Position numbers and translations under genes: made by a program | Notes under the pieces: generated by a model | Databases searched by the model: none | Told to the model about the DNA's origin: nothing | What the model saw: only the letters and a program-made list of their open reading frames with translations | Shown here: positions 33,734 through 41,779 of the stretch, in pieces | Numbering within the stretch: the first letter of the stretch is position 1 | How the letters are laid out: the number at the start of each line of letters is the position of its first letter | DNA from: an uncultured Opitutia bacterium | GTDB lineage: Bacteria; Verrucomicrobiota; Verrucomicrobiia; Opitutales; Opitutaceae | Direction of reading: 5' to 3' | Length of the DNA stretch: 42,435 nucleotides | Assembly (NCBI GenBank): GCA_903940425.1 | Contig: CAJAKX010000335.1 | Location: forward strand, 1 to 42,435

Positions 33734-34357
33734 ATGCATGCCTGGCCCAACATAGTGCTTGTCGCACTGGCCTACCTCCTGGGGGGATTTTCCCCGGGCT
33801 ACTGGCTGGTGCGCTGGCGCACCGGCCTTGACGTGCGCACCACCGGCAGCGGCGGGACCGGGGCGACGAACGTGGGGCGGGTTTTGGGCCAGGGAGGTTA
33901 TGCCGCGGTGCTCGTCGTTGACGTGGGGAAAGGGGCGCTGGTGGGTGCGGCGGCGCGCGTCATGGGAGTTTCCACCGCGTGGGCCTTTGCCGCGGCTTTT
34001 ATGGTTGTCGCCGGGCATGTCTGGCCCATCTGGCTGGGTTTTCGCGGCGGCAAGGGTGTCGGTCCCTTCATTGGCTCCTGGCTGGTGCTCGCCCCGCTCG
34101 CGTTGGTGCCCAGCCTCGTCCTTGGCCTGCTTTTACTGGCCTGGCTGCGTCGCGTCTCCATCGCGGGACTGTGCAGCCTGATTTTGCTGCCCGCCGCCGC
34201 CTGGTGGGCAACCGGGGCCAGAACTCCCGTCGCCGTCGCCTGTGGCACAATTTCTCTTCTCCTGTGGTCCCATCGTGTTAATCTCCGGAACTTTGCCGAC
34301 GCACGCCTTCAGGACGCCGCGGCCCCTCCAGCGGAACCACCGACGAATTCCCCGTAA
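33734..34357 (+). CDS. plsY: Acyl-phosphate:glycerol-3-phosphate O-acyltransferase PlsY-like
   Basis: LVALAYLLGGFSPGYWLVRWRTGLDVRTTGSGGTGATNVGRVLGQGG...HVWPIWLGFRGGKGVGPFIG. Confidence 0.88.
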   Translation: MHAWPNIVLVALAYLLGGFSPGYWLVRWRTGLDVRTTGSGGTGATNVGRVLGQGGYAAVLVVDVGKGALVGAAARVMGVSTAWAFAAAFMVVAGHVWPIWLGFRGGKGVGPFIGSWLVLAPLALVPSLVLGLLLLAWLRRVSIAGLCSLILLPAAAWWATGARTPVAVACGTISLLLWSHRVNLRNFADARLQDAAAPPAEPPTNSP

Positions 34358-34360
34358 CCC

Positions 34361-36037
34361 ATGCCGAATATCGCCCCGACCACCGCCGAACTCGTCTTCA
34401 AGGTCGCCTCCGAGGATTGGGAGTTTGAGCAGATCCACCGCCTCAACTACCGCATCTTCGTCGAGGAGATTCCGCAGCACGCCCCTAACCCGGAAGGACG
34501 GCTGGTCGATCGCTTCCACGCCGAAAACACCTATATCATCTGCCTGCAGGGCCGCCGCCTCGTCGGCATGCTGGCCCTGCGCGCGAAGCGCCCTTTCTCG
34601 CTGGATGGCAAGCTGCCCAACCTTGACGCCTACCTGCCCAAGGGTCGCAGCCCGGTGGAAGTGCGCCTGCTGGCGGTGGAACCCGAGTTTCGCAAAACCA
34701 TCGTCTTCTCCCAGCTTTTTGAACAGGTATGCCGCTACGGCCTCACCGAAGGCTATGATCTGGCCATCATTTCAGGCACGACCCGGCAGGCGAAACTTTA
34801 CCGCCACCTTGGCTTTACACCGTTCGGTCCGCCCGTCGGCACGGACCAGGCCTCCTATCAGCCGATGTATCTGACCGTCGAGGCATTCGGCCAGACGGTG
34901 GAGCGCAGCCCGGTGCTCCGCAGCAGCTTCACCGAGTCCGCCCCTCCCGACCACCAGGTGTTCAATTTCCTTCCCGGCCCGGTGCCTCCCGTGCCCGAGG
35001 TTCGGGCGGCGTTCGCTGGTACTGCCGTCTCGCATCGGAGCCAGTTGTTCCTCACGCGCATGGCGGAGGTGCGCGCCGCCCTGTGCCGCCTCACCGGCGC
35101 GTCCGACGTGCAGGTGCTGCTGGGTTCGGGTTCGCTGGCTAATGAAGTGGTCGCCGCCCAGCTCTCACTGCTGGAGACGACCGGCCTCGTCCTGTCCAAC
35201 GGTGAATTTGGCGAACGTCTGGCAGCCAACTCGCGGCGCGCCGGCCTGCGCTTCGACTGGCTGCGGCTGTCATGGGGCCAGCTTTTCGACATCACCCAGG
35301 TGGAACGCTTCGCCGAACGCCTGCCGCGCGGCGGCTGGATCTGGTTCGTCCATCACGAAACCTCCACGGGCATCATGAATCCGCTCGCGGAACTCAAGGC
35401 CCTCGGCGCGCGCCTCGGGCTGCACCTGTGCTGTGATTGCGTCAGCTCACTCGGCGCCATGCCCGTGGATCTGCATGGCGTCCACCTCGGCACGACCGCC
35501 AGCGGCAAGGGGCTCGGCAGCTATCCCGGTCTCTCCATGGTTTTTCATGACTATCAGCCGCGGCCGGCCGCCGACCGCCTGCCCGGTTACCTTGATCTGG
35601 GCCACTGGGCCGCGCATCAAAGCGTGCCGCACACGCATTCGTCGAACCTGCTGTTCGCCCTAGCCGAGGCGGTGCGCCGCGCCACGCCCGAGCGCATGAC
35701 GCAGATCGCCGAAAACGCCGCGTGGCTGCGGCGCGAGCTGCGCACGCGCGGCTTTGCCCTCGTCGCTCCCGAATCGGTCGCGAGCCCCGGCATCGTCACC
35801 CTCGCCCTCGACGAGGGCATGTCGGCGGCCGAACTCGGCGAGGAGCTCGAAATACGCGGTTACTGGTTGAACTACCGCAGCCAATATCTGCTGGAAAGGA
35901 ACTGGATCCAGGCGAGCCTCCTCGGCAATCCCGACCGCGGCAGCCTGGAAAAACTGCTCCACGTGCTGCGCATGGTCTGCAGCCGGCGCAGTGTGGAAAA
36001 GCACGGCCTGCCCGCGACGGGCAAACCCCACCAGTAA
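34361..36037 (+). CDS. Fusion protein: N-terminal GNAT/N-acyl-amino-acid-synthase (AHL-synthase-like) domain + C-terminal class V PLP aminotransferase (PhnW-like)
   Basis: N-term LVFKVASEDWEFEQIHRLNYRIFVEEIPQH...VEVRLLAVEPEFRKTIVFSQLFEQVCRYGLTEGYDLAIISGTTRQAKLYRHLGF; C-term VFNFLPGPVPPVPEVRAAFAGTAVSHRS...LGSGSLANEVVAAQL...CDCVSSLGAMPVDL...TTASGKGLGSYPGLSMVFHDY. Starts 4 nt after the plsY stop. Confidence 0.82.
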   Translation: MPNIAPTTAELVFKVASEDWEFEQIHRLNYRIFVEEIPQHAPNPEGRLVDRFHAENTYIICLQGRRLVGMLALRAKRPFSLDGKLPNLDAYLPKGRSPVEVRLLAVEPEFRKTIVFSQLFEQVCRYGLTEGYDLAIISGTTRQAKLYRHLGFTPFGPPVGTDQASYQPMYLTVEAFGQTVERSPVLRSSFTESAPPDHQVFNFLPGPVPPVPEVRAAFAGTAVSHRSQLFLTRMAEVRAALCRLTGASDVQVLLGSGSLANEVVAAQLSLLETTGLVLSNGEFGERLAANSRRAGLRFDWLRLSWGQLFDITQVERFAERLPRGGWIWFVHHETSTGIMNPLAELKALGARLGLHLCCDCVSSLGAMPVDLHGVHLGTTASGKGLGSYPGLSMVFHDYQPRPAADRLPGYLDLGHWAAHQSVPHTHSSNLLFALAEAVRRATPERMTQIAENAAWLRRELRTRGFALVAPESVASPGIVTLALDEGMSAAELGEELEIRGYWLNYRSQYLLERNWIQASLLGNPDRGSLEKLLHVLRMVCSRRSVEKHGLPATGKPHQ

Positions 36038-36330
36038 GACCGGCGCCTGACGGCGGCGGCCGCGCTGAAATCGCGGCTTCGGTCCAGGCGACTTTCTCTT
36101 CGATAAAATTGCGAAGAGGCGGGTTGCCCTCTAATGTAGCGCCACATTCCGATCATTGATTTCCGCAGCATCATCGACGAAATCGCCAGCCAGGCTGATG
36201 ACTTTCCTGCCGGTGCCGCGAACCGGAAGGAGGCCCGCGCCGGCATCGATGAGTTGATCAATGCCGGCCATCCGCGGCTCAGCCCGGGCGACCGTCAGAA
36301 AATCGCGGAAGGCGTCATGGCCATCCTCGA
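36007..36330. repeat. Direct repeat copy 1 (paired with 41377-41700)
   Basis: Gapless hand alignment at offset 5,370; about 26 mismatches in 324 positions (~92% identity). Confidence 0.9.
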
Positions 36331-36400
36331 GCAGGAGGTTTTCTTGAGACCGCCGGGCGTTGGGGCGGGACGGGCGTAGAAGTCGAAGACGGGGAGTAAT
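36155..36400 (+). pseudogene. Degenerate copy of the small ORF at 41525-41779
   Basis: IDFRSIIDEIASQADDFPAGAANRKEARAGIDELINAGHPRLSPGDRQKIAEGVMAILEQE...; start ATG is ATT here, and a 1-nt deletion relative to copy 2 shifts the C-terminus. Restoring the nucleotide gives ...EAFLETAGRWGGTGVEVEDGE* ending at 36400. Confidence 0.6.
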
Positions 36401-36660
36401 CAGATCTTCACGGGGAAGACTCCCCCCGTTTGGTGGCGAAGGGACCAACCCTCCGGCAGCGGCATGAGGTTCGCGCGTCCCTCGCGCCAAGGACGGAATC
36501 GAATCACCGGCACCACGATTTCTGTGCTCTGCTCCGCCGAGGTCGCCACCGGGCTGGGGGCGACGAGAAGCGAACGAAGATCGCCGCGCTCTGCTGCGCA
36601 AAGGGATCTCCCGCGGCTCTCGGACGCGGCGAGGATCGGCGAACGCGCCGGCACGGCACT
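36400..36660 (-). CDS. Possible small protein downstream of the PAP2-like gene (uncharacterised)
   Basis: Open frame ...SLLVAPSPVATSAEQSTEIVVPVIRFRPWREGRANLMPLPEGWSLRHQTGGVFPVKI*; start uncertain (TTG/GTG near the PAP2 stop). Confidence 0.3.
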   Translation of the reverse strand, partial: SAVPARSPILAASESRGRSLCAAERGDLRSLLVAPSPVATSAEQSTEIVVPVIRFRPWREGRANLMPLPEGWSLRHQTGGVFPVKI

Positions 36661-37538
36661 CAAGCCATCCCAGCCCTGCTCCACCGGGCAACGGCCAGCG
36701 CGCTCAACGCCACCGCCACCCCGGCGATCACGTCGACGGCGTAATGGTAACTGCAATAAACCGTGGCCGGCAGGATCCCCAGACAAGCGGGGAGGTACAA
36801 CACGGCCCACCGGGGGGCGTATTTCAGAGCATATACCAGTACGACGACGGCCACGGCGACGTGTGAACTGGGGAAGGCGCCCCCGGGCAGTTCAAACCAG
36901 CGATAGATGAATTCCATGACACCGGGAAAGACAGCGCCGGGAGGCGGCGCGGGTTTCAGATCGACGGGTCCGGTGGCAGGGAAGAGCACGAACACCAGAC
37001 AGCAGAAATAGAACGCACCACAAAGGGTGGAGAAATAATCATCGAGCACGCGCGGCGTACGGCGCAGGTGCAGCAGCAAGGCCAGGCCGGGGAACAGCAG
37101 GTAATACGAAAAATATATCGCGTGCATGATTTCCGCGATCATGGCCTGTGGAAATGCGCGGGCGAAGTCGACGGCCGGTTCGCAACCAAAGAGCGCCCGA
37201 TCAAGGTCGCGCAAACAGTCGTCGTGAAAGCCGGGGCACAGAATGTGGTTCATCGCTCCGGTCTGCGCATACGCGGCCCAGATGAAGAACACCGGGTAGA
37301 GCGCCCGCAGCGATCGCCACACCGCGCGCGCGTCGGATCCCACCCGGGAGATGAAAAACCACAGGAACGCCAGCATCGCCAGGTTGGGCAGAATCAGGGC
37401 GTACCACGCCGGGATGCGGTGCGCGAAGGCCACGATCAGGCCGGCGACCACCAGGTTGTAGGCGAAGGTCAACCGGTCGGTGCGGTTCAGATTCCGCCAG
37501 ACGGAGGCCGCTGATGTGAATGAAAGCGCCGGGGTCAT
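36660..37538 (-). CDS. PAP2_3 superfamily membrane protein (Aur1/inositol-phosphorylceramide-synthase-like)
   Basis: Multi-TM; FPATGPVDLKPAPPPGAVFPGVMEFIYRWFELPGGAFPSSHVAVAVVVLVYALKYAPRWAVLYLPACLGILPATVYCSYHYAVDVIAGVAVALSALAVARW, with the PSSHVA and HYAVDVIAG motifs. Confidence 0.8.
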   Translation of the reverse strand: MTPALSFTSAASVWRNLNRTDRLTFAYNLVVAGLIVAFAHRIPAWYALILPNLAMLAFLWFFISRVGSDARAVWRSLRALYPVFFIWAAYAQTGAMNHILCPGFHDDCLRDLDRALFGCEPAVDFARAFPQAMIAEIMHAIYFSYYLLFPGLALLLHLRRTPRVLDDYFSTLCGAFYFCCLVFVLFPATGPVDLKPAPPPGAVFPGVMEFIYRWFELPGGAFPSSHVAVAVVVLVYALKYAPRWAVLYLPACLGILPATVYCSYHYAVDVIAGVAVALSALAVARWSRAGMA

Positions 37539-37556
37539 CGAGAAGCGCCTCGCGCC

Positions 37557-38543
37557 TCAGAGCCAGCCACGGTTGACGTACCAGTCGCGCGTCTGGCGGA
37601 AGCCCGCGGTCAGATCGAATTGCGGAACGAAGCCGAGTTCGTCGCGAATCCGGCGGCCCTGGCACACCCAATGCGGGCACAGGAACTCCCGCATTCGGTC
37701 GGGATTCAACACCGGCGGCCGGCCGCTCACCGCGCCCCACCACCCTCCGAGCTGCGCCGCCGCCCACGCCAAGCCCTCGGGCAACCGGATTGTCAGCGGA
37801 TTCCGGTCCATGACCCGGCTCATCGTCGCCGCCACCTCGTCCCACGTGTGCCTCGCGCCATCTTCCAGCAAATAATCCTTCTGCCGGCTGGCGGGATTCT
37901 GGAGGCACAGGACCACGGCGCGTGCCAGATCCTCCGCATGGAGCAGCGAAAGCGAGCGTGCCTGCCGGCCGATACTGGGCATCACTCCGTGCTTGATAAG
38001 CCGGAAATAGGTCAGGAAGTCGACATCCCCCGGTCCGTAGACCGCCGGAGGGAGCAGGATGGTGACCGGGAAGCGGTCCCGGAACGAGGCGGCGAGCTGC
38101 TGGCCGGCGAGCTTGCTCCGTCCGTAGGGCCCGACGGGGTGCGGAGGGTCGTCTTCCGTCACCGGCTCATCCGGGCCCACCGCGGGCCCCAGGGCCGCAA
38201 GACTGCCAATCATGATTAATTGCTGCATGCGCCCACCCATCCCCGTGCAGGCGTCGCACAGGTGTCGGGTGCCTTCGGCGTTGACGGCAAAGAACCCGGC
38301 GGGCCGGCGGGCGCGCGTCAGACCGGCGCAGTGGACCACCGCATCGACGTCCCGCACCGCCGGCGGCAGAGTGTCAGGCTGCGTGACATCTCCCGGCACC
38401 AGCTCCGGCCCGAACCCGTCGATGAGATCCAGGCGGCTGTGCGCCCGGACGAGACAACGCACGGCAAAACCGGCCGTGTGAAGCGCCGCCACCACGTGAT
38501 AACCGACAAAGCCGGAAGCGCCGGTCACTAGGATCTTGCGCAT
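37557..38543 (-). CDS. NAD-dependent epimerase/dehydratase-family SDR; candidate 3-ketosphinganine/ceramide reductase (CerR-like)
   Basis: MRKILVTGASGFVGYHVVAALHTAGFAVRCLVRAHSRLDLI...VVHCAGLTRARRPAGFFAVNAEGTRHL...YGRSKLAGQ...LGFVPQFDLTAGFRQTRDWYVNRGWL. Function from operon context. Confidence 0.7.
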   Translation of the reverse strand: MRKILVTGASGFVGYHVVAALHTAGFAVRCLVRAHSRLDLIDGFGPELVPGDVTQPDTLPPAVRDVDAVVHCAGLTRARRPAGFFAVNAEGTRHLCDACTGMGGRMQQLIMIGSLAALGPAVGPDEPVTEDDPPHPVGPYGRSKLAGQQLAASFRDRFPVTILLPPAVYGPGDVDFLTYFRLIKHGVMPSIGRQARSLSLLHAEDLARAVVLCLQNPASRQKDYLLEDGARHTWDEVAATMSRVMDRNPLTIRLPEGLAWAAAQLGGWWGAVSGRPPVLNPDRMREFLCPHWVCQGRRIRDELGFVPQFDLTAGFRQTRDWYVNRGWL

Positions 38544-38576
38544 ACGGAGGCCCATCGTGCGGTTTCACGCGCCGGT

Positions 38577-39701
38577 TCAAGACAACGCCAGGTCATACAA
38601 GCGGTAGGTCTTGTAAACCCGAAATCCCATTTTCTCGAGTGCGCGATTCATCGTCGTGTTGGTTTCGAGGATCCACGACGCTTCGGCCTGCGGCATGCCC
38701 TTGGCATACGAGTTCTTGTAGCTCTCGCAGTAGAAACAGGCGTCGATGCTCATGTGTCGGAATTTCTTGATCACACCCATCGTGATGGTCCGGACCGCGT
38801 TGATCCGGCGTTTGTACCACAGCAGTTTGAAGAGACCGAAGGGAAACAGGCGGCCGTCAAGATGGATCAGCGCCTGATTGATGTCCGGCAGGGAAAGAGA
38901 GAAACCCGCAACCTCCCCGTCCACCTCGGCGATGAAGCAGAGGTCGGGGTCAAGGATCATCTTCAGGTCCTTGGCCAGGTGCTTGAACTCCTGGTCGGTC
39001 ATGGCCACGGCGCCCCAGTTCTCCGCCCAAGCCGAGTTATAAACGTCCTGAATGCGCTGCACCTCGCTGTCAAAGTCCTGCATGTTCACCTTGCGAACGG
39101 TGAACCCATATTTCCGCCGCGCGAGCTCCACCCCGCGTTCAAAGCGCTCCGGGGCCCGGCCAGGCGACACCGTACAATGCGCCAACAAGTTCATGATCGG
39201 ACGAAACCCGTACCCCGTGACGAGCTTCTCGTAATAGGGCGGGTTGTAGGGCATCATGATCATGGGCGGGTGGTCGAATCCATCGACGAGCAGGCCGATG
39301 TCGTCGTTGATGCACATGTTCATGGGGCCGCGCATGACCTCCATGCCGCCAGCTTTGAGAAAACCAGCGGCAGCACCAAACAGCGCGCCGGCCACCGCGT
39401 CGTCCTCGATGCATTCAAAGAGGCCGAAGAAGCCGGTCTTGTCCCCGTAGGTGGTGTTGTGGTTGCGGTTGATGATGCCGGCAATCCGCCCGCAGCAGAC
39501 GCCGCGCTCGTCCACCGCGAGAAATAGTTTCACCGTCGCGTGCTCGAAGAAGGGATTTTTGCGGGGGTCCAGAAAATCCCGGCGCTCCATGCGCAACGGA
39601 GGGACCCAGTGCGGATACCGGCCGGGATAGATCCGCCACGGGACGTCGATGAAGCGGTTCTTCCCGCGCTTGTCCCCGACCTCGATGATCCGTACCGACA
39701 T
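38577..39701 (-). CDS. GNAT-superfamily acyltransferase-like protein; candidate bacterial ceramide synthase (bCerS-like)
   Basis: FIDVPWRIYPGRYPHWVPPLRMERRDFLDPRKNPFFEHATVKLFLAVDERGVCCGRIAGIINRNHNTTYGDKTGFFGLFECIEDD...C-terminal AEASWILETNTTMNRALEKMGFRVYKTYRLYDLAL. Start 39701, 2 nt after the spt stop. Confidence 0.7.
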   Translation of the reverse strand: MSVRIIEVGDKRGKNRFIDVPWRIYPGRYPHWVPPLRMERRDFLDPRKNPFFEHATVKLFLAVDERGVCCGRIAGIINRNHNTTYGDKTGFFGLFECIEDDAVAGALFGAAAGFLKAGGMEVMRGPMNMCINDDIGLLVDGFDHPPMIMMPYNPPYYEKLVTGYGFRPIMNLLAHCTVSPGRAPERFERGVELARRKYGFTVRKVNMQDFDSEVQRIQDVYNSAWAENWGAVAMTDQEFKHLAKDLKMILDPDLCFIAEVDGEVAGFSLSLPDINQALIHLDGRLFPFGLFKLLWYKRRINAVRTITMGVIKKFRHMSIDACFYCESYKNSYAKGMPQAEASWILETNTTMNRALEKMGFRVYKTYRLYDLALS

Positions 39702-39703
39702 GG

Positions 39704-41002
39704 TTAGTGCACGAGACCCGTCTGCCGCCCCACCTTCTCGAATTTCTCCAGCGCAAAGTCGATCTGGGCGAAGGTATGCGTCGCCATCAGGCTCACCCGC
39801 AGCAGCGCGTTGCCCGGTTCGACCCCCGGCACCACCACCGGGTTTACAAAAATTCCTTCGTCCTGGAGCAGGCGGCAGAACTTGAAACACAGAAGGTCGT
39901 CGCCAATGCACACGGGCAGAATGGGGGTGCAACTCCGACCAAGATCGAACCCCATCGCCTTCAGCCCGGCGGACAAGCGGTGGGCATTGTCCCACAGCCG
40001 CTGGATGCGTTCCGGTTCCGACAGGACGATCTCGAGCGCCGCCATCACCGTCGCCACGTTGGCCGGAGGAATGCTGGCACTGAAGATAAGCGAGCGGGAC
40101 TGATGTTTGAGGTACTCGATGGTCTCCGCGTCCGAGGCAATGAAGCCGCCAACGGATGCCAGCGACTTGCTGAACGTGCCCATCGTGAGGTCGACTCTAT
40201 CGGTCAGCCCAAAGTGCGCGGCCGTTCCCCGACCCTGGGGGCCAATGACACCGAGCCCGTGGGCGTCGTCCACCATCACCACTCCGCAATGGGCTTCGGC
40301 AAGGGCAACGATGGCCGGCAGATCGGCCAGATCGCCATCCATGCTGAAGACACCATCCACGACGATCAGCTTGCTTTTCTCGGGTGGCAGCGACCGCAGT
40401 ATCTCTTCGAGGTTCTGCATGTCGTTGTGCCGGTACCGAATCACCCGGCTGAAGCTCATGCGCGCACCGTCGACGATGCTGGCGTGATCCAATTTGTCCA
40501 AAATCAGGGAATCGCTCCGGCCGGCCAGCGTGGGCAGCACCCCCAGATTGACTTGAAAGCCCGTGGAATAGACCAGCGCCGCCTCCTTGCCGACGAAGCG
40601 CGCCAGCTTCTCCTCGCATTCCAGGTGGATGTCCAACGTGCCGTTGAGGAAGCGCGACCCCGCGCAGCCCGTGCCATACTTCGCGATCGCCGCGATGGCC
40701 GCCTCTTTGACCTTGGGATGAGTGCTCAAACCCAAGTAATTGTTCGATCCGAGCATCAGCAGCTTTTGGCCGTTCATCTGCACTTCGGTGTCCTGGCCTG
40801 AGGACAGGGGACGAAAATACAGATAGAGCCCGAGATGCTTGATTTCCGCCGGGACGGTATAACGACTGATTCTCTCGCGGATGGTGTCGGTGTATTGCTG
40901 CATGGGGTGCGCAATCGAAACGTTATTCAGCTGGTAAATCAAGTTGGATGAAAGATGGGTGGCGCGGAGGCGCTGGGCTGCGGCACGGTCGCCTTGTTCC
41001 AT
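39704..41002 (-). CDS. spt: Serine palmitoyltransferase (alpha-oxoamine synthase family)
   Basis: KLLMLGSNNYLGLSTHPKVKEAAIAAIAKYGTGCAGSRFLNGTLDIHLECEEKLARFVGKEAALVYSTGFQVNLGVLP...DKLDHASIVDGARMSFSRVIRYRHNDMQNLE...VVDGVFSMDGDLADLPAI...VDDAHGLGVIGPQGRGTAAHFGL...TMGTFSKSLASVGGFIA. Alternative start at 40903 (MQQYTDTIRERISRY). Confidence 0.87.
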   Translation of the reverse strand: MEQGDRAAAQRLRATHLSSNLIYQLNNVSIAHPMQQYTDTIRERISRYTVPAEIKHLGLYLYFRPLSSGQDTEVQMNGQKLLMLGSNNYLGLSTHPKVKEAAIAAIAKYGTGCAGSRFLNGTLDIHLECEEKLARFVGKEAALVYSTGFQVNLGVLPTLAGRSDSLILDKLDHASIVDGARMSFSRVIRYRHNDMQNLEEILRSLPPEKSKLIVVDGVFSMDGDLADLPAIVALAEAHCGVVMVDDAHGLGVIGPQGRGTAAHFGLTDRVDLTMGTFSKSLASVGGFIASDAETIEYLKHQSRSLIFSASIPPANVATVMAALEIVLSEPERIQRLWDNAHRLSAGLKAMGFDLGRSCTPILPVCIGDDLLCFKFCRLLQDEGIFVNPVVVPGVEPGNALLRVSLMATHTFAQIDFALEKFEKVGRQTGLVH

Positions 41003-41376: not shown

Positions 41377-41700
41377 CCTGCCCGCGACGGACAAACCCCA
41401 CCGGTAAGACCGGCGCCTGACGGCGGCGGCCGCGCTGAAATCGCGGCTTCGGCACAGGCGACTTTCTCTTCGGAAAAATTGCGAAGAGACCGGTTGCGCT
41501 CTAATGTAGCATCACATTCCAATCATGGATCTCCGCAGTATCATCGAAGAAATCGCCATTCAGGCTGATGACTTTCTTGCCGGTGCAGCGAACCGGAAGG
41601 AGGCTCGCGCCGGCATCGATGAGCTGATCAATGCCGACCATCCGCAGCTCAGCCCGGGCGACCGCCAGAAAATCGCGAAAGGCGTCATGGCCATCCTCGA
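41377..41700. repeat. Direct repeat copy 2 (paired with 36007-36330)
   Basis: Includes a remnant of the fusion-gene 3' end (LPATDKPHR* vs LPATGKPHQ*), the intergenic region, and the start of the small ORF. Confidence 0.9.
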
Positions 41701-41779
41701 GAACGAAGGCTTTTTTGAGTCTGCCCACCCCGGCGGTTCCGGTGGCGCGGCGAGTAATGAGTCTGGCAACGGCGGATGA
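41525..41779 (+). CDS. Small helical hypothetical protein (84 aa)
   Basis: MDLRSIIEEIAIQADDFLAGAANRKEARAGIDELINADHPQLSPGDRQKIAKGVMAILENEGFFESAHPGGSGGAASNESGNGG*; duplicated in degenerate form at 36155. Confidence 0.7.
   Translation: MDLRSIIEEIAIQADDFLAGAANRKEARAGIDELINADHPQLSPGDRQKIAKGVMAILENEGFFESAHPGGSGGAASNESGNGG

Follow-up and report, generated by a model that had tools for sequence, protein, structure and literature searches.

The window analysed here, a 42,435-nucleotide stretch of DNA from an uncultured Opitutia bacterium (contig CAJAKX010000335.1, here C335, of the draft genome G000), carries on its minus strand four genes, spt, bcerS, cerR and a gene of the PAP2 superfamily (Table 1), which probably constitute one operon for the de novo synthesis of a phosphosphingolipid, with the PAP2 protein adding the headgroup. 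A first-pass annotation, made from the sequence alone, had described four same-strand genes with tiny gaps, and all four open reading frames were recovered; the intergenic gaps are 2, 21 and 18 nt, bcerS starting 2 nt past the spt stop codon. It had also proposed a near-complete route from serine to a ceramide with a phospho-headgroup, and this proposal is supported by the family assignments given below. From the family identities, the gene linkage and the fold we infer the reactions, the headgroup and the side of the membrane on which it would be added. It is proposed that serine palmitoyltransferase (SPT) converts serine and a fatty acyl thioester to 3-ketosphinganine, and that the PAP2 protein transfers a phospho-alcohol headgroup from a glycerophospholipid to ceramide with release of diacylglycerol, its catalysis depending on two conserved histidines and an aspartate common to AUR1. 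The likeliest donor would be phosphatidylethanolamine (PE), giving ceramide phosphoethanolamine, and phosphatidylglycerol (PG) would be the second. The ceramide part of the operon, consisting of SPT, the ceramide synthase bCerS and the reductase CerR, is an already known type of cluster. The new part is the built-in, predicted non-inositol Aur1-like gene, of which we did not find a description in the literature searched, whose coverage was incomplete.

The PAP2 protein matches Pfam PAP2_3 with 60.5 bits and contains the catalytic motifs FPSSH and TVYxxYHYxxD. In an alignment of the window protein with 24 relatives, nearly all encoded beside bCerS genes, FPSxH and HYxxD are kept in all 25 members, and nearly all of them have a threonine six residues before the second histidine. 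Threonine is also present there in AUR1, whereas LpxE and Bacillus PgpB (YodM) have arginine at the position occupied by Thr258 in the window protein. The profile built from the 25 members matches AUR1 from end to end (E 1.4e-10); LpxE and PgpB rank behind it, with matches confined to the C-terminal third and its motif. For the predicted structure (pLDDT 90.5) the best Foldseek match is an inositol-phosphoceramide (IPC) synthase–ceramide complex (E 3.7e-6, TM 0.60), followed by Aur1-Kei1 and SMSr-ceramide, and phosphatases appear only from E 0.05. Given the motifs, the AUR1 profile match and the predicted-structure matches, the window PAP2 is thus predicted to be built like a sphingolipid headgroup transferase, with transfer to ceramide as its putative reaction. 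The Aur1-like character ascribed to it earlier holds at the level of fold and motif, in the profile, in Foldseek and in the alignment. Membership of the PAP2 superfamily, together with weak matches of the C-terminal motif to LpxE, PgpB and undecaprenyl-diphosphate phosphatase, would also fit a lipid phosphate phosphatase, which might, for example, take phosphate off a ceramide or phosphatidate intermediate; the end product would then be free ceramide or a lipid glycosylated elsewhere. This explanation is unlikely: the phosphatase motif KxxxxxxRP is absent from the protein, which has no RP dipeptide anywhere, SRxxxxxHxxxD does not match, with Thr258 replacing the catalytic arginine of motif C3, and three sphingolipid-synthase structures outrank the phosphatases. 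Moreover, the operon, the only part of the genome considered in this respect, holds no ceramide kinase.

If the PAP2 protein is a headgroup transferase, its product could be IPC, as for the bacterial IPC synthase BT_1522, which belongs to the same superfamily, and AUR1 is the top match in both the structural and the profile search. The data make this very unlikely. On NF052609, the model of BT_1522-type IPC synthases, the protein scores 31.3 bits against a cut-off of 480. A PAP2 tree of 40 rows, in which AUR1 forms a long branch and a Prevotella BT_1522-like protein stands in for BT_1522, splits at 100/100 into one clade with these two and the PAP2 proteins linked to polyketide synthase (PKS) genes, and a second clade with the window protein, all operon PAP2s and a Prevotella PAP2 adjacent to a CerR gene. 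Inositol-phosphate synthase (PF07994, PF01658) had no match in the draft genome G000 and is absent also from its three nearest operon carriers, G332, G166 and G353. The CDP-alcohol transferases of G000 are three (PgsA, PssA and one without assignment), and no phosphatidylinositol (PI) synthase was recognised among them. Finally, a separate PKS-linked cluster in the same family carries both inositol-phosphate synthase and a true IPC-synthase-like PAP2. Because of the score of 31 bits, the position outside the AUR1/BT_1522 clade and the missing inositol-phosphate synthase, the window PAP2 is not, as judged from sequence, an IPC synthase, so that of the earlier description as IPC-synthase-like the Aur1-like fold and motifs stand and the IPC synthase activity is dropped. 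PssA and PgsA are present, and Psd was found in G000, G332 and G166; PE and PG are therefore the obvious donors.

The PKS-linked arrangement was seen in four same-family genomes (L050, L051, L052 and L054). Each encodes a protein of roughly 1320-1370 aa that contains an SPT-like alpha-oxoamine synthase domain; in L050 this domain is joined to ketoacyl synthase, carrier and dehydratase domains. Next come a YghO-type acyltransferase and then a PAP2 belonging to the IPC-synthase clade. In L050, both inositol-phosphate synthase and a CDP-alcohol transferase were confirmed beside these genes, and in the other three inositol-phosphate synthase lies in the same stretch. The arrangement suggests an inositol phosphosphingolipid cluster of polyketide origin.

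The PAP2 clade of the operon is also represented in Prevotella. A search with the PAP2 profile of a chromosome-sized record, that of Prevotella sp. oral taxon 299, revealed a full-length member (163 bits) located 3 nt downstream of a CerR-like short-chain dehydrogenase/reductase (SDR) gene, and the pair (L191, 406-2418) is unannotated in the record. It resembles the window in having the SDR followed by a PAP2 of the window clade, and differs in that spt and bCerS lie elsewhere in the Prevotella genome, which has in addition a separate BT1522-1525-like inositol (IPC) operon (L192). A tblastn search of plasmids with the window PAP2 alone gave no match, whereas the profile recovered the Prevotella protein, so one sequence by itself is not sensitive enough as a query here. 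Ethanolamine-phosphoceramide (EPC) is a major Bacteroides sphingolipid; the Drosophila EPC synthase had no match in the B. thetaiotaomicron proteome, where the IPC synthase is known (PMC8791184). The CerR linkage in Prevotella, the separate IPC operon and the missing EPC-synthase match make the second PAP2 clade a natural candidate for EPC synthesis. It can be proposed, tentatively and with somewhat less than even confidence, that the operon PAP2s and the CerR-adjacent PAP2 of Prevotella are bacterial ceramide phosphoethanolamine (EPC) synthases, forming a second clade of phosphosphingolipid synthases that spans many phyla and has the inositol-specific AUR1/BT_1522 clade as its sister group.

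For the first enzyme of the pathway, the SPT sequence blocks noted earlier, KYGTGCAGSRFLNGTLD, DHASIVDGARMSFS and TMGTFSKSLASVGGFIA, are all present in the translation, and its assignment to SPT rather than to KBL or BioF was confirmed by comparison. Among NCBIfam models the protein scores 601.4 bits with NF047600 (Bacteroidota/CFB-type SPT), 406 with KBL (glycine C-acetyltransferase) and 398 with BioF. Its best solved relative is the Sphingobacterium SPT (3a2b, 487 bits), followed by the Sphingomonas SPT (303) and E. coli KBL (285). In a tree of 81 rows, the window protein groups with those of G332, G166 and G246, then with the Sphingobacterium and Parabacteroides SPTs (100/98) and a spirochaete protein, whereas E. 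coli KBL, Thermus KBL/BioF, E. coli BioF and one KBL paralog of G000 fall outside; the possibility that the operon is a paralogous BioF/KBL cluster was rejected on this tree. Alignment to the Sphingobacterium enzyme (8guh/3a2b) shows conservation of the pyridoxal phosphate lysine (TFSKS), the stacking histidine (DHASI) and the MATHT region. These comparisons support the prediction that the window spt encodes an SPT of the Sphingobacterium/Bacteroidota clade. A related amino-lipid, for example with a 1-deoxyceramide or sulfonolipid-type base, would be formed if this enzyme used alanine or cysteate; alternative amino-acid use by Spt-like proteins has been proposed for Black Sea bacteria (PMC11334938), and among the relatives of the protein with a solved structure is a cysteate fatty acyltransferase. 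However, that relative scores 252 bits, compared with 487 for the Sphingobacterium SPT, and the headgroup transferase of the operon would require the 1-hydroxyl that serine supplies, which makes this the least likely of the explanations weighed here. A second SPT-like alpha-oxoamine synthase (L007, contig C254 of G000, 1474-2838), with 380 bits to the SPT model, is kept across the family, including genomes lacking the operon, and its neighbours look like glycosyltransferase genes.

The N-acyltransferase was identified through YghO and its fold, because the bcerS protein alone matched no Pfam or NCBIfam model and the PDB sequence search was also empty. A GNAT domain is seen in 23 of 27 relatives. 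The protein is 37% identical to YghO of E. coli BL21 over 99% of its length. In that strain yghO forms a five-gene cluster with genes for a fatty acyl-AMP ligase, an epimerase-like reductase, an acyl carrier protein (ACP) and spt. YghO and Caulobacter CC_1154 are reported as the N-acyltransferases of dihydroceramide synthesis (PMC9386255). The AlphaFold model (pLDDT 91.5) has tandem GNATs as its top Foldseek matches. This evidence supports the window GNAT as a putative YghO-type ceramide N-acyltransferase, in agreement with the earlier suggestion of a bCerS-type enzyme, the comparison having been made via YghO, with the Caulobacter enzyme known from the cited work. Elsewhere in G000 (L060, contig C111, 737-2983), a further YghO-like protein, a paralog with 30% identity to the operon GNAT, is encoded beside another plsY.

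The cerR protein matches Pfam Epimerase with 118 bits and contains TGASGFVG, corresponding to the NAD-binding TGxxGxxG, and the Ser-Tyr-Lys residues, the latter two within YGRSK. Its full-length identity to the reductases of other spt clusters is 27–35%, with 27% for that of the E. coli cluster. In the tree it groups with the reductase of the E. coli cluster, used as reference in place of the BT_0972 protein named in the first-pass annotation, and with about 50 further SDRs, almost all of them encoded in spt/bCerS clusters; the two control epimerases, the only controls used, fall apart from this group. A CerR-like SDR, as annotated initially, is thus what the grouping suggests. Since extended SDRs are many and the tree has only two controls, this enzyme is the least securely assigned of the three that build the backbone. 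The order of acylation and reduction in bacterial ceramide synthesis is disputed (PMC11087976).

Two other genomes have the four genes in identical order: G332, from the same genus (91-97% identity), and G166, which belongs to a different family of the phylum (69/58/47/43% identity). In G353, also of the same genus, they lie together but rearranged and on another contig, and the operon was not found in the same-genus genomes G299, G355 and the incomplete G354. The G332 operon is at the same site as that of the window, and the occurrence of the set across the genus is patchy. The window SPT is closer to that of G166 (69%) than to that of G353 (62%), and because of this the operon may have spread by horizontal transfer, as the sequence identities suggest. 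Eighty public loci containing the closest bCerS relatives were chosen by similarity to the window GNAT, so that counts in them are no estimate of population frequencies; at a distance of up to 3.5 kb from bCerS, 53 have SPT, 40 SDR, 22 PAP2 and 17 all four, the last group coming from Acidobacteriota, Gemmatimonadota, Nitrospirota, Myxococcota and unnamed lineages. Compared with the 22 loci that have it near bCerS, the operon-type PAP2 turned up a single time in the remaining 425 kb of these 80 loci, and adjacency by chance was rejected on this density.

Other arrangements were also seen. PAP2 is missing from L045 and L047, two clusters of the same class, and neither was counted as the same system. 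In L045 (5690-9993) a fatty acid hydroxylase, an alpha-oxoamine synthase, a CDP-alcohol phosphatidyltransferase and a YghO-type acyltransferase lie in a row, apparently another headgroup solution, and the synthase–acyltransferase arrangement of L047 resembles it. On a plasmid of Rubrobacter radiotolerans (L103, 6698-12290), SPT, bCerS and CerR are followed, in the place of PAP2, by an LTA-synthase-family gene, perhaps a phosphoglycerol headgroup transferase.

Spt-like proteins have been reported in metagenome-assembled genomes of 38 phyla, and the Spt-bCerS-CerR cluster in many phyla (PMC11334938). The window operon shares the three enzyme families and their clustering with those of Caulobacter and E. 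coli B (yghO-aasR-epi-acpR-spt), but it lacks a dedicated acyl-ACP synthetase or ACP gene, its SPT belongs to the Sphingobacterium/Bacteroidota clade, and a PAP2 gene is built in. With the phosphoinositol dihydroceramide synthase BT_1522 (B. thetaiotaomicron BT1522-1526) and yeast AUR1 the PAP2 protein has in common the PAP2_3 fold, FPSxH and HYxxD, and with AUR1 also the threonine at the phosphatase arginine position; it differs in its separate clade (100/100) and in its linkage to spt, bcerS and cerR rather than to inositol genes. Human SMSr, a ceramide phosphoethanolamine synthase (PDB 8ijq) and the third-best structural match, has the same reaction as is proposed here, but no sequence relation to the window protein was detected, and the bacterial activity is predicted only. 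The Caulobacter ceramide phosphoglycerate pathway (CpgA-C, ceramide kinase) likewise has headgroup genes beside ceramide genes, but uses a ceramide kinase and other enzymes, with no mention of a PAP2 transferase (PMC11324152). The operon places an Aur1-like enzyme of a new clade beside ceramide genes in a genome where inositol-phosphate synthase was not found, and it narrows a missing step in the synthesis of lipids with effects on the mammalian host to a few genes that can be tested. The arrangement could also serve to recognise phosphosphingolipid producers of uncultured phyla from their genomes.

Several points weigh against a phosphosphingolipid operon with a non-inositol headgroup. The PAP2 clade is separate from all characterised synthases, and the identity of the window protein to AUR1 is about 19%, with a TM-score of 0.60. 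Inositol-phosphate synthase is present in 19 of the 28 genomes searched (four of the 19 being PKS-cluster genomes), and since most carriers of the operon PAP2 in other phyla have it, some members of the clade may use PI and the headgroup may differ across the clade. The genome G000 (3.68 Mb, 96% complete) is a draft of 459 contigs, which makes gene absences in it uncertain. Lastly, NF047600 is the best-scoring model for SPT, yet the score lies below the curated cut-off of 640 bits; we read this shortfall as probable distance from the Bacteroidota members that set the cut-off.

Table 1. Predicted genes of the operon, with homology-based coordinates in the window
Gene	Coordinates	Strand	Length	Predicted product	Basis
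spt	39704-41002	-	432 aa	serine palmitoyltransferase, Bacteroidota-like clade	NF047600, PDB 3a2b, tree
bcerS	38577-39701	-	374 aa	putative YghO-type tandem-GNAT N-acyltransferase (ceramide synthase)	YghO identity, AlphaFold model
cerR	37557-38555	-	332 aa	putative NAD(P)-dependent extended SDR, ketosphinganine/ketoceramide reductase	Pfam Epimerase, identity, tree
PAP2 gene	36660-37538	-	292 aa	PAP2_3 membrane protein, proposed Aur1-like ceramide phospho-headgroup transferase	Pfam PAP2_3, AUR1 profile match, Foldseek, tree

Homology coordinates were used for the genes, longest-ORF calling having mislabelled genes in this high-GC DNA. The spt start is uncertain, at 41002 or at a downstream ATG at 40903, and homology to solved SPTs extends from residue 41 on. 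Promoter and terminator scans of the operon gave no more matches than shuffled sequence. A direct repeat of 349 bp, its copies 91% identical, lies on either side of the operon (36007-36354 and 41377-41725) and spans the end of a GNAT-aminotransferase gene and a small ORF, which is intact at 41525-41779 and decayed in the other copy; G332 has a sole copy, the one on the 36007 side. From the lower-coordinate side, plus-strand plsY and the GNAT-aminotransferase gene converge on the operon. This locus (33734-36037) comprises plsY and, after it, a gene that joins a FeeM-like N-acyl amino acid synthase domain to a class V (2-aminoethylphosphonate-type) aminotransferase. It possibly represents another N-acyl lipid pathway, and its homologs occur in 13 of 61 genomes of the family.

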